Positions 3,998 through 12,614 of a stretch of 64,000 nucleotides of DNA are shown here, piece by piece. The notes under the pieces were generated by a model. The model saw only the letters and a program-made list of their open reading frames with translations, was not told the origin of the DNA and made no database searches. Source of the DNA: Hydrogenimonas sp. (GTDB taxonomy: Bacteria > Campylobacterota > Campylobacteria > Campylobacterales > Hydrogenimonadaceae); NCBI GenBank assembly GCA_003945285.1, contig AP019005.1, forward strand, positions 124,001 to 188,000, given 5' to 3'. The translations under genes were made by a program, and so were the position numbers. Positions within the stretch are counted from its first letter, which is position 1, and each line of letters starts with the position of its first letter.

Positions 3998-4029
3998 TTA
4001 ACACATACTTAACACTCATAACTTATAAT
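3998..4029 (+). promoter_or_regulatory. Promoter of the copper receptor with 11-bp-phased TTAAC boxes
   Basis: TTAAC occurs at 3998-4002 and 4009-4013 and a degenerate ATAAC at 4018-4022, each 9-11 bp from the last, directly before a perfect TATAAT -10 box at 4024-4029. The boxes cover the place of a -35 element, as expected for a regulator of the OmpR/PhoB type binding direct repeats on one face of the helix. A similar, longer array precedes ccoN. The regulator is not identified. Confidence 0.5.
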
Positions 4030-4039
4030 GTTTCTTCAG

Positions 4040-4094
4040 ATACCGCTTCGAACCTGCTAACCGACTGTTCTTCCTGCTCCTTTCGAAGCGGTAT
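4040..4094 (+). promoter_or_regulatory. Leader hairpin with perfect 13-bp arms before the copper receptor
   Basis: ATACCGCTTCGAA at 4040-4052 is exactly complementary to TTCGAAGCGGTAT at 4082-4094, with a 29-base loop. The 3' arm contains the upstream in-frame ATG (4093), which argues against that codon as the start. No U-run follows, so it is not a simple terminator. It could be an mRNA stability element, a protein or sRNA site, or a dyad operator. Confidence 0.55.
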
Positions 4095-4119
4095 GACTAC
4101 AAACATCAAGGCAAAAAAG

Positions 4120-6117
4120 ATGAAAAAAACAGCTTCTTTTATAGCACTCTCACTGGTTGCGGCCGTAACAGTTCAGGCAGAGGAGGTGCTGCTTGATACG
4201 GTAGAAGTAGAGGGGGGGATAAATACGACCATAGTCAAGAATGTAGCCGGCGAAGAGGTCCGCTCTGCCGACCTTGCCGATGCTTTGAGCAAGCTCGATC
4301 CGGATATTCAGCTGATAAGAAGAAGCGGCATAGCCAACGATATAATTTTAAGAGGCCTCAGGAAAGACAATATCAACGTATTGATCGACGGTGCGAAGAT
4401 ATACGGGGGGTGCCCCAACCGTATGGATCCGCCGATATCGCATATTCTTGCAAGCAACGTAGAGAGAATAGTGATCAAGGAGGGGCCATTTGATGTCGAG
4501 AACTTCGGAACGCTCGGCGGGCTGATAGAGGTGGATACTCTTGCCCCGGAAGAGAGGTTCCAGGGTGAAGTTACACTCAATGTCGGAAGCTGGGAGTACA
4601 GGAAGACCGGCTTCCGGCTGACGGGAGGCTCCGAAAAGGTCAAATTCATTGTCGGTGCCTCAACCGAGAGCAGCGGCCAGTACAGGGACGGCGAGGGTAG
4701 AACCCTGGCGGAGCAGGTGGATGCGTTCGCCGACAGATATCCGACCGCCGACGGACAGAGGTATGCGCCGATGTACCATGAGATGAAAGCGTACAAGAAA
4801 GATACCGCGATGGCCAAGGTATTTATAGATATTGCCGACAACCAGGAGCTAAAACTGAGTTACACGGCAAACAGGAGCAACGATATTCTCTACCCGAACT
4901 CAAAGATGGATGCAAAGCGTGACGCATCCGACCTCCTCAACATAAAATACAGCGCAACCGATCTCGGAGAGTTGTCGAAAAAACTGGATGTCGAGTTCTA
5001 CAATTCGTGGGTTGATCACCCTATGGGAACATACTTCAGGCAGGCTTCTATGATGATGGGGCTCTTTGAAAACATCATGTTCTCCAGGATATACGGCGGT
5101 AAGATAAAAAACAGCATGGATCTCGGCAAAGGGACGTTGTCATACGGGTTCGACGGAAGCAAAAGATTTTGGGAGGGGCACTATGCGAGTAACTCGGTAC
5201 CGACCGGCATCTCGAGTATAGATAGTGCCGTTACGGAAAATGCTGCGCTCTTTGCCGAGTACGAGAGGAGTTTCGGAGATATCGATATGGAAGCCGGAAT
5301 TCGGTACGACTCGACATCCGTAGGTAATGACGATCCGGCTGTTGCAGATAACGACTACAGCTACTTCAGCGGATATATTTTGGGTACATACAATGTAGAC
5401 GAAACATCAAGATTTTTCCTGGGGGCAGGCAAGTCATCGAGGGTGCCTGACGGAAAAGAGCTCTATTTCCAGATGAAAGATGGAACATATGTAGGAAATC
5501 CGAATCTAAACAAGACTACTAACTATGAGGCGGATATCGGTTTCGAAAAGGAGTTCGAAGATGTATCTTTGAAGAGCAAGATATTCTACAGCCGACTTAA
5601 AGATTTCATAGCATATAACTTGACGAATGCAAAATATGAAAACGTCGATGCTAAACTTTACGGTATTTCGGTAGAAACGGCATATTCGGTCAGTGATGAT
5701 ATCTATGTTGAGGCCGGAGCTGCATACCAGAGAGGCAGAAAAGATAACCCGCTCACAGGACAGACGGACAGGGATCTTCCCAATGTTCTGCCGCTCAAAG
5801 CCAATGCGGCGGTCAATTACGACTTCGACGAGACACTTACGGCGAAGCTGTCGGCAGTGGCCGCCAAAGGGTGGAGTGACTACGATTCCGACAACGGCGA
5901 GCAGAAGATTTCCGGCTACACGGTATTTAACCTTAAAATCAGGAAAGAGATGGGTCGAAGTGTGACGGCTACTTTCGGAGTGGACAATATTCTGGATAGA
6001 AATTACGCCGTTAGCAACACTTATGCCGATATGATTTTGGTATCAGGCGGGGGAGTGCCGATGCTCCTCAATGAGCCGGGCCGCTACTACTACTGCAACC
6101 TTACCTTGCATTTTTAA
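4120..6117 (+). CDS. TonB-dependent outer-membrane receptor, OprC/NosA-type copper importer
   Basis: About 665 residues: signal peptide (TASFIALSLVAAVTVQA), TonB-box-like segment (LDTVEVEG), plug domain with DIILRGLRKDNINVLIDG, a 22-strand-type barrel, and a C-terminus ending in aromatic F after LTLH. Its loops carry CPNRM (Cys98, Met102) and HPM (His300, Met302), matching the CxxxM-HxM copper site described for the OprC/NosA family, so copper uptake is the likely role rather than siderophore transport. ATG at 4120 is preferred over the in-frame ATG at 4093 because the latter lies inside a hairpin and AAGG precedes 4120. It stands alone just before the copper-containing cbb3 oxidase operon, which fits copper supply. 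Confidence is high for the receptor and moderate for the substrate. Confidence 0.85.
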   Translation: MKKTASFIALSLVAAVTVQAEEVLLDTVEVEGGINTTIVKNVAGEEVRSADLADALSKLDPDIQLIRRSGIANDIILRGLRKDNINVLIDGAKIYGGCPNRMDPPISHILASNVERIVIKEGPFDVENFGTLGGLIEVDTLAPEERFQGEVTLNVGSWEYRKTGFRLTGGSEKVKFIVGASTESSGQYRDGEGRTLAEQVDAFADRYPTADGQRYAPMYHEMKAYKKDTAMAKVFIDIADNQELKLSYTANRSNDILYPNSKMDAKRDASDLLNIKYSATDLGELSKKLDVEFYNSWVDHPMGTYFRQASMMMGLFENIMFSRIYGGKIKNSMDLGKGTLSYGFDGSKRFWEGHYASNSVPTGISSIDSAVTENAALFAEYERSFGDIDMEAGIRYDSTSVGNDDPAVADNDYSYFSGYILGTYNVDETSRFFLGAGKSSRVPDGKELYFQMKDGTYVGNPNLNKTTNYEADIGFEKEFEDVSLKSKIFYSRLKDFIAYNLTNAKYENVDAKLYGISVETAYSVSDDIYVEAGAAYQRGRKDNPLTGQTDRDLPNVLPLKANAAVNYDFDETLTAKLSAVAAKGWSDYDSDNGEQKISGYTVFNLKIRKEMGRSVTATFGVDNILDRNYAVSNTYADMILVSGGGVPMLLNEPGRYYYCNLTLHF

Positions 6118-6123
6118 AGCCTT

Positions 6124-6140
6124 CGCCGGATTTACCGGCG
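6124..6140 (+). terminator. Possible terminator hairpin after the receptor gene
   Basis: CGCCGG, loop ATTTA, CCGGCG starts 7 bp after the stop codon. It has six perfect GC-rich pairs but no following U-run, so termination would be weak or factor-dependent. Confidence 0.35.
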
Positions 6141-6156
6141 CCGGCATCCACATTCA

Positions 6157-6233
6157 TTAAGCATACCTTAACAAAATAGTTAATTGAAAGTTAACAGATT
6201 TTAAGCGTACCTTCATAAAAATGTCACTATGAT
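6157..6233 (+). promoter_or_regulatory. cco operon promoter with five phased TTAA boxes
   Basis: TTAA cores begin at 6157, 6168, 6180, 6191 and 6201, i.e. steps of 11, 12, 11 and 10 bp, about one DNA turn each. A TATGAT -10 candidate lies at 6228-6233 and no good -35 box is visible, so the promoter probably needs an activator. The same TTAAC core is at the copper-receptor promoter. What binds here is unknown. Confidence 0.5.
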
Positions 6234-6288: not shown

Positions 6289-7752
6289 ATGACAAATGCA
6301 GCAATGGAATACGATTATACCGTATCCAAGTGGTTCGCCTACCTAGCAATCATATTCGGGATTATAGGTATGCTTATTGGTGTGTTCATTGCCTTTCAAC
6401 TGGCATATCCTGAACTGAACTACCTGTTCGGCCAGTACGGAACGTTCAGTCGGCTTCGACCTATACATACTAATGTGGTCGCATTCGGATTTACACTGAG
6501 CGGTATCTGGGCAGCGTTTTACTATATTTCACAGAGGGTATTGAAAGTCTCTATAAAAGAGAACCCGGTTGTTCACGGAATAGCCAAGCTGCACTTCTTC
6601 CTGTATGTGATCCTGGCGGCAGGTCTTGTGATCTCTCTGCTTCTTGGTATAACTACTTCCAAAGAGTACGCCGAGATGGAGTGGCCGCTTGATATCCTTA
6701 CGGTTGTAGTGTGGATTCTATTCGGTCTTGCTATGTTCGGTCTCATCGGTATGCGTCGTGAAAAAACTCTCTATATATCCATGTGGTATTTCATTGCCTT
6801 CTTCCTCGGCGTCGCAATGCTCTACCTCTTCAACAATATGGAAGTTCCGACATATTTCGTTGCGGGTATGGGTAAATGGTACCACTCGGTCTCGATGTAT
6901 GCTGGAACCAATGATGCGCTTGTTCAGTGGTGGTACGGACACAATGCGGTCGCATTCGTCTTTACTGTGCCGATCGTTGCGATGATCTACTACTTCCTGC
7001 CCAAAGAGTCGGGACAGCCAGTTTTCTCCTACAAGCTCTCTCTTCTCTCGTTCTGGGGTCTTATGTTCGTATACCTCTGGGCAGGCGGACACCACCTGAT
7101 CTACTCTACGGTACCGGACTGGATGCAGACAATGGGCTCCATCTTCTCGGTTATACTGATTCTTCCTTCATGGGGTTCTGCGATCAACATGCTTCTTACG
7201 ATGAAGGGTGAGTGGAACCAGCTCAAAGAGTCTCCACTGATCAAATTTATGGTACTGGCTTCGACTTTCTACATGCTCTCCACTCTCGAAGGTCCTATCC
7301 AGGCGATAAAATCGGTAAACGCTCTCGCTCACTTTACAGACTGGATTCCCGGACACGTTCATGACGGTACGCTCGGCTGGGTCGCCTTTATGATCATCGC
7401 AGCCACTCTCCATATGGCCCCTCGCTACTATAAGCGTGAGATATACAGCAAAAAGCTTATGGAGATGCAGTTCTGGCTTCAGACTACGGGAATCGTCCTC
7501 TACTTCTCAAGTATGTGGATTGCAGGTATCACACAGGGAATGATGTGGAGAGCGGTAGACCAGTACGGAAACCTGGCCTACTCTTTCATCGATACCGTTA
7601 CGGTTCTTCATCCGTACTACACGATTCGTGCTATCGGCGGTCTGCTCTTCGTTATAGGTCTGTTCATGTGGGCCTACAACTTCGTTAAAACAATGCAAAG
7701 CGGCAAAGTTCTTGAAAAAGAGCCAGCATTCGCTTCGCCTATGGGCGCGTAA
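6289..7752 (+). CDS. ccoN: cbb3-type cytochrome c oxidase subunit I
   Basis: CcoN is the catalytic haem-copper subunit of the high-affinity cbb3 oxidase, carrying low-spin haem b and the haem b3-CuB centre. Its many membrane helices contain family landmarks: the N-terminal RPIHTNVVAFGF (haem ligand His), WWYGHNAVAF (CuB region), GGHHLIYS, and HVHDGTLGW. The start at 6289 is set by a strong AAAGGAGG nine bases earlier; an upstream in-frame ATG at 6229 has no ribosome site and lies in the promoter. The resulting 487 residues are normal length. It is the first gene of ccoNOQP. Confidence 0.97.
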   Translation: MTNAAMEYDYTVSKWFAYLAIIFGIIGMLIGVFIAFQLAYPELNYLFGQYGTFSRLRPIHTNVVAFGFTLSGIWAAFYYISQRVLKVSIKENPVVHGIAKLHFFLYVILAAGLVISLLLGITTSKEYAEMEWPLDILTVVVWILFGLAMFGLIGMRREKTLYISMWYFIAFFLGVAMLYLFNNMEVPTYFVAGMGKWYHSVSMYAGTNDALVQWWYGHNAVAFVFTVPIVAMIYYFLPKESGQPVFSYKLSLLSFWGLMFVYLWAGGHHLIYSTVPDWMQTMGSIFSVILILPSWGSAINMLLTMKGEWNQLKESPLIKFMVLASTFYMLSTLEGPIQAIKSVNALAHFTDWIPGHVHDGTLGWVAFMIIAATLHMAPRYYKREIYSKKLMEMQFWLQTTGIVLYFSSMWIAGITQGMMWRAVDQYGNLAYSFIDTVTVLHPYYTIRAIGGLLFVIGLFMWAYNFVKTMQSGKVLEKEPAFASPMGA

Positions 7753-12499: not shown

Positions 12500-12614
12500 A
12501 GAAGCTCTCCGGGAAGATCTCCCAGCAAGCTTATAAAATACTGAAATTAAGCTAGAATTAATCAGACTTACCCTACAATCGCTTCGTTCAAATCTTTTTA
12601 AAGGTCAAGCTACC

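Follow-up and report, generated by a model that had tools for sequence, protein, structure and literature searches.

HsrA/HP1043/CosR is the essential orphan regulator of the Campylobacterota. The HP1043 consensus is TTTAAG-N5-TTTAAG, a repeat that lies just upstream of the -10 box and has a weaker second half, and ribosomal protein genes are among the targets of HP1043 (PMC5253667). The PmrA/BasR box of Salmonella and Klebsiella consists of CTTAAG and XTTAAT half-sites, which are arranged head-to-tail and 5 bp apart (PMC3973317). The boxes described below have the geometry of these PmrA and HsrA boxes, so the kind of site is already known.

To our knowledge, it is poorly understood how copper import is switched on in Gram-negative bacteria. 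The copper ligands of the receptor OprC are a CxxxM and an HxM motif, and copper represses the related NosA, which is linked to N2O reductase (PMC8610252). CrtA/BfrG is a copper receptor linked to a respiratory oxidase, sometimes together with ExbBD/TonB and PCuAC genes (PMC12914433). The open-access literature that we searched, with subscription journals outside its scope, yielded no description of a TTAAC copper regulon and no regulator of copper import in Campylobacterota.

Here, we analysed bases 124001-188000 of the 2.19 Mb genome of Hydrogenimonas sp. (genome G000); this stretch of 64,000 nucleotides is referred to as the window. Near its start, an adenylosuccinate-synthetase-like frame (48-1056) appears to be interrupted by a frameshift near 240-280, which leaves the ORFs 48-272 and 280-1056.

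We propose, with a probability of roughly 0.7, that the sequence TTAACA-N5-TTAACA in front of the copper receptor gene of this window is bound by an OmpR/PhoB-family response regulator in charge of a copper-acquisition regulon of the Campylobacterota (Table 1).

Table 1. Features of the window (positions counted from its first base) and of the further genomes and loci compared.
Feature	Position	Strand	Remarks
Putative copper-regulator site TTAACA-N5-TTAACA	3998..4014	+	exact in 11/12 receptor-bearing genus genomes
-10 box TATAAT of the receptor	4024..4029	+	15 nt from the start of half-site 2; same spacing in 49/60 aligned promoters
TonB-dependent copper receptor, OprC/NosA type	4093..6117	+	CxxxM and HxM ligands; best PDB match OprC 6fok
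ccoN upstream pair 1, TTAAGCATACCTTAAC	6157..6172	+	in the genus, position kept and sequence variable
ccoN upstream pair 2, TTAATTGAAAGTTAACA, possible copper-regulator site	6180..6196	+	intact in 9/12 genus genomes
ccoN proximal pair 3, TTTAAGCGTACCTTCATA, HsrA/HP1043/CosR-type	6200..6217	+	TTAAGC in 12/12 genus genomes
-10 box TATGAT of ccoN	6228..6233	+	27 nt after TTAAGC, as in relatives
ccoN, cbb3 oxidase subunit I	6289..7752	+	TIGR00780 over cut-off
rplM promoter element ATTAAGCTAGAATTAAT, HsrA-type	12546..12562	+	TTAA at 12547/12558; kept in 16/16 genus genomes read
-10 box TACAAT of rplM	12574..12579	+	27 nt downstream of the rplM element, conserved
RR217/HK280, candidate reader	G000:1679064-1680537		pyrC-RR-HK-exbB arrangement
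Genes downstream of the box across the order, counted (of 68 read)			copper receptors 11; other TonB receptors 9; ExbB 6; NosL family 11-13
Genes downstream of the box across the order, uncounted			PCuAC, MbnP, multicopper oxidase, DsbD_2/SafE, RR
Further gene downstream of the box across the order			thioredoxin-like gene immediately upstream of ccoN
Box-less gammaproteobacterial receptor homologs	L273, L274, L289, L290, L299, L303, L306-L308, L310, L312, L324, L343		

The copper receptor and its promoter

The receptor matches OprC with E=9.9e-22 and carries both ligand motifs of the OprC/NosA type; C107, M111, H309 and M311 are invariant across 15 receptor orthologs. Its best NCBIfam model is TIGR01778, yet it remains under the cut-off of this model (161 vs 472 bits). 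Judged by ligands and fold, the receptor would work like OprC and represent a distant branch at most. The true start codon may be an internal one, close to the MKKTAS seen in the alignment. A plasmid search with the receptor returned distant relatives only, about a quarter identical at most among those listed.

The initial annotation had placed TTAAC boxes at 3998 and 4009, a step of 11, ahead of TATAAT at 4024, and these coordinates are exact. A third step had been claimed at 4018-4022. Only ATAAC is found there, and no such half-site was seen in the orthologous promoters read, so it was dropped. The promoter has no -35 box. The two half-sites occupy its place, at about -38 and -27, which bears out the earlier idea that phased direct repeats stand in for the missing element. 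The alignment of receptor promoters yields the consensus TTAACAC-NNAN-TTAACAC, followed by a TATAAT-like hexamer. Two half-sites 11 bp apart near the -35 region, at a fixed distance from the -10 box, are the direct-repeat arrangement of OmpR/PhoB-type regulators, and the OmpR-family activator suggested earlier fits this geometry.

Conservation of the paired box

Within this genome alone, the evidence for the pair is modest. TTAAC-N6-TTAAC in the receptor upstream region has p=0.0006 in 5000 dinucleotide shuffles. The chain of five TTAA cores in 10-12 bp steps before ccoN was reached in 0/5000 such shuffles, and the TTAA pair at rplM has p=0.012-0.03 (again 5000 shuffles). The genome holds six exact pairs, as against four for the reversed control, and they precede the copper receptor, ccoN, an OmpR-type regulator, a second TonB receptor (two overlapping pairs) and nosZ. 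Three-box TTAA arrays across the genome are little over control. A search for TTAA at 11-bp spacing, which had been suggested as a check, gave no excess of this loose pattern in bulk DNA (4 in 190 kb, the same as for gaps of 8 and 14), and the loose TTAA spacing spectrum is uninformative.

The lack of enrichment of loose pairs and the ratio of six to four exact pairs would both suit the view that the phasing arose by chance in AT-rich promoter DNA. Conservation beyond the controls in the genus, the order and the named GTDB loci argues against it. In the 11 genus genomes with an exact pair before the receptor, the pair is accompanied by the -10 box. With up to one mismatch and a -10 box, the genus contains 89 matches vs 19 in the control, and 120 genomes of the order contain 167 matches of the pattern vs 17 (all totals summed by hand). 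Comparison with orthologous promoters, another check proposed at the outset, found the receptor box kept: among the receptor orthologs of named Campylobacterota loci, TTAAC-N6-TTAAC is exact in 44/65 and within one mismatch in 60/65, as against 0/13 gammaproteobacterial orthologs within one mismatch. Shuffled receptor upstream regions contain 0.04 exact pairs per 78 sequences. Exact pairs in the named Campylobacterota loci lie upstream of the receptor (48), in other non-coding DNA (21) or in coding DNA (2 in 595 kb), and pairs with spacings of 4, 5, 7 and 8 reach just 0-2 per category.

The ortholog counts, the shuffles and the spacing and coding-DNA controls rule out chance phasing at the receptor site, and we give this explanation practically no weight. 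The single-genome evidence being modest, it is the comparison across genomes that settles that the receptor box is more than chance. On this comparative evidence, the paired TTAAC box before the copper-import gene is a real control site.

Gammaproteobacterial records, including Sedimenticola and Candidatus Thiodiazotropha, contain close homologs of the copper receptor (45-49% identity) without the box, which perhaps reflects transfer of the gene without its control site.

Genes downstream of the box

Across the order, the box is also found upstream of other TonB receptors, tonB, exbB, NosL, PCuAC, MbnP and OmpR-type regulator genes. About 45 of the 68 matches whose downstream gene was read precede copper or TonB genes. 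The category counts in Table 1 are by-eye readings of the sequences, and Pfam confirmed at least one member in the classes PCuAC, MbnP, oxidase, DsbD_2 and NosL. Matches in the genus precede tonB (8 genomes), NosL-like genes, a second and a third TonB receptor and a regulator. The identities of tonB and the TonB receptors were checked with Pfam; Pfam did not match the CKMP-type NosL-like proteins that the genus encodes, which are labelled by motif resemblance. Near the named receptors, the other assignable boxes lie ahead of tonB-like, NosL-like or response regulator genes. The initial annotation had tied the TTAAC boxes to copper uptake, and their positions before copper receptors, tonB, exbB and NosL-like genes uphold this.

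Some boxes precede genes without a known copper role, namely dnaA, LolA-like and DUF4405 genes. The dnaA promoters of the genus (L023) contain a conserved TAAC..TTAAC..ATAAAAT stretch, and a similar conserved match occurs in two genomes of the family f8 (L196, L198, L350, L351). We rejected these dnaA matches as regulon members; they are conserved and probably unrelated.

At three loci (L439, L460, L490), the box precedes a protein with a weak match to cytochrome-bd subunit I and a C-terminal cytochrome c domain. This protein could be a copper-free oxidase for times of copper shortage. The TTAAC box may serve as bait for more copper genes, with the NosL-like, MbnP, DUF4405 and cytochrome-bd-like proteins as candidates.

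A two-component system as candidate reader

The probable reader of the TTAAC boxes is a single conserved two-component switch. The candidate comprises a response regulator (RR) of about 217-223 aa and a kinase (HK) of about 280 aa (Pfam). The genes are ordered pyrC-RR-HK in several families, to which this genus adds exbB (pyrC-RR-HK-exbB). In many named loci, RR/HK orthologs lie at most 6 kb from the copper receptor, often with ExbB and ExbD. In G043 and G058, the RR gene forms part of the cluster of receptor and exbBD genes; the RR-HK pair adjoins the receptor in G042 and nosZ in G040 and G056. A box lies directly upstream of RR genes in G000, G001, G005, G043, G058, G066, L277 and L302. Outside the genus, the kinase co-occurs with the receptor (p=0.0016) and with the box (p=0.001), in a calculation that ignores shared ancestry and uses hand-made presence calls. 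In G027, receptor and box are present and no short kinase was found. The pyrC-operon promoter of the genus carries TTAACATCCTnnTAAC, one mismatch off the box; that of the present genome has no box within one mismatch.

The genome encodes 12 OmpR-type regulators, and the identity of the reader rests on association. Both points would leave room for another regulator that reads TTAAC, be it an OmpR-type RR with a 400-aa kinase or a copper sensor outside the OmpR family. We consider this improbable, since the 11-bp direct repeats indicate the OmpR family and no group other than the short-kinase one shows recurrent linkage to the receptor, exbBD or nosZ together with boxes upstream of its own genes.

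The recognition helix RVY(I/V)xx(L/I)K is common to the copper-linked RRs and differs from that of the other OmpR regulators here. Since the copper-linked RR groups share this helix, it would explain how paralogs read one box. One such paralog, apparently autoregulated, is the RR at G000:303443, which the tree places among receptor-linked RRs from other families (95/95) and away from the RR217 of the genus. It looks horizontally acquired, because it groups with these RRs and has close orthologs in only 3/18 genus genomes. The latter distribution, together with the presence of the box where this RR is missing, led us to discard it as the sole regulator. This RR (L064:7443-14091) has no kinase gene next to it; downstream of it come genes for an outer-membrane factor, a fusion protein and an RND pump of the AcrB type.

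Of the solved structures, PmrA/BasR is one of those most closely related to the short-kinase RR. The RR itself scores far under the cut-off of the PmrA model (106 vs 330 bits). Its kinase apparently has just a very short loop between the transmembrane segments. With such a loop, and being often encoded with ExbBD, the kinase may sense the state of the transporter or the membrane, not copper itself.

Pairs of the form TTTAC-N6-TTTAC were also noted before -10-like boxes at G000:C1:1359681, 1366822, 1375888 and 809120 (L067, L068, L071), three of which lie about 12 kb or less from an OmpR-type RR at 1364045. They have the same 11-bp geometry and are perhaps a second regulon.

HsrA-type sites at rplM and ccoN

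An HsrA/HP1043/CosR ortholog is present in this genome: the RR at G000:1784451 matches 2hqr over its length (E=9.5e-87). Sites resembling TTTAAG-N5-TTTAAG, with a strong first half and close to the -10 box, are found at rplM and in ccoN pair 3, the rplM element carrying ATTAAG and not TTTAAG. The initial annotation had taken the rplM pair as a sign that part of the TTAA phasing could be due to chance. This does not hold, as the same element recurs with the same spacing to TACAAT throughout the genus genomes read; going by this recurrence, the rplM pair is a conserved HsrA-type site.

The same ortholog might read TTAAC and TTAAGC alike, as one general activator and with no dedicated copper regulon. 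Its sites would share the identical 11-bp direct-repeat geometry and a near-equal distance to the -10 box (26 vs 27 nt). The TTAAC pairs, however, lack TTTAAG half-sites: TTAAC is found in both halves, with C in 96% at the deciding sixth base, where the HP1043 consensus has G. Moreover, TTAAC sites precede copper and TonB genes and become frequent only in the presence of the short-kinase system, and the recognition helices differ. A common HsrA-type reader thus appears improbable, and we retain a dedicated regulator as the likely reader of the TTAAC box.

The ccoN cores described earlier, TTAA at 6157, 6168, 6180, 6191 and 6201 in steps of 11, 12, 11 and 10 before TATGAT, are placed correctly. 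The array is better read as three 11-bp pairs, at 6157/6168, 6180/6191 and 6201/6212. Pair 3, TTTAAGCGTACCTTCAT, matches the HsrA/HP1043 pattern at its distance from TATGAT, and TTAAGC 26-27 nt ahead of a TATAAT-like box recurs in the ccoN promoters of several other families. Its TTTAAGC is located at about -39 and is a different element from the TTAACA-N5-TTAACA of the receptor. Pair 2 reads TTAATT-N5-TTAACA. G004 and G012 lack it or have it in broken form, and the ccoN promoters of other families did not show it. Pairs 1 and 2, which are confined to the genus, could be copper-regulator sites.

These results bear on the earlier proposal that the receptor and the cbb3 operon share one activator site. 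The two sets of genes adjoin, and pair 2 resembles the copper site; as it is intact in most genomes of the genus, it is plausible that copper controls receptor and oxidase jointly at this level. The proximal ccoN element, in contrast, is of the HsrA type and more widely conserved, and pair 2 has the gaps just described. We therefore rejected the simple form of the proposal, one element common to both promoters, and a shared activator site overall seems doubtful.

A model for the response to copper limitation

In the genus, the nosZ box lies between an FNR-like TTGAYN4RTCAA site and a probable -10 box, within one mismatch in 9/10 genomes; the FNR-like site is clear in G004, G007, G012 and G016. 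In G034, G038 and G051, the nosZ box is found just downstream of a TATAAT. Locations between the -35 region and the -10 box, or downstream of the latter, are those of a repressor and suggest copper sparing.

We computed the site, its geometry, its position in the -35 region, its conservation and its gene set, and infer the RR/HK as reader, the activation of uptake and the repression of nosZ. In our model, copper shortage is the predicted signal of the kinase, which would give rise to RR-P. RR-P would bind as a head-to-tail dimer at -38/-27, replace the -35 box and recruit RNA polymerase to the uptake genes. Since RR-P would activate uptake genes, its active state would mean that uptake is on, and hence copper shortage. 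At nosZ, RR-P should act as a repressor under copper limitation and so spare copper. Basal activation of ccoN most likely comes from HsrA/CosR at TTTAAGC; in this genus only, pairs 1 and 2 may place the gene under additional control by copper. Whether one box in two positions makes up a widespread copper-limitation system of the Campylobacterota, activating uptake from -38/-27 and repressing from the nosZ position, is a tentative extension to which we give somewhat less than even odds.

If the proposal is right, one regulator and one box would govern the copper supply to both the cbb3 oxidase and N2O reductase. If nosZ is indeed repressed, copper shortage would raise the release of N2O. Campylobacterota matter at vents, in sulfidic sediments and in denitrification.

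Comparison with known systems

The receptor described here shares its fold family and its CxxxM-HxM ligands with the OprC/NosA receptors. It differs from them in falling under the TIGR01778 cut-off, and no TTAAC box is reported for OprC/NosA. As in CrtA/BfrG operons, a copper receptor is associated with a respiratory oxidase; CrtA/BfrG, in contrast, belongs to another receptor family, and control in Bordetella is post-transcriptional via CruR (PMC12914433). The PmrA/BasR box likewise consists of two TTAA-containing half-sites with head-to-tail orientation and a 5-bp separation, whereas the half-sites here are TTAACA and the targets copper genes. The HsrA/HP1043/CosR sites of Helicobacter and Campylobacter are similar in that they form 11-bp direct repeats just upstream of the -10 box with a weaker second half. 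Unlike the TTAAC boxes, they are built from TTTAAG and not TTAACA, and HsrA targets are general and not copper genes.
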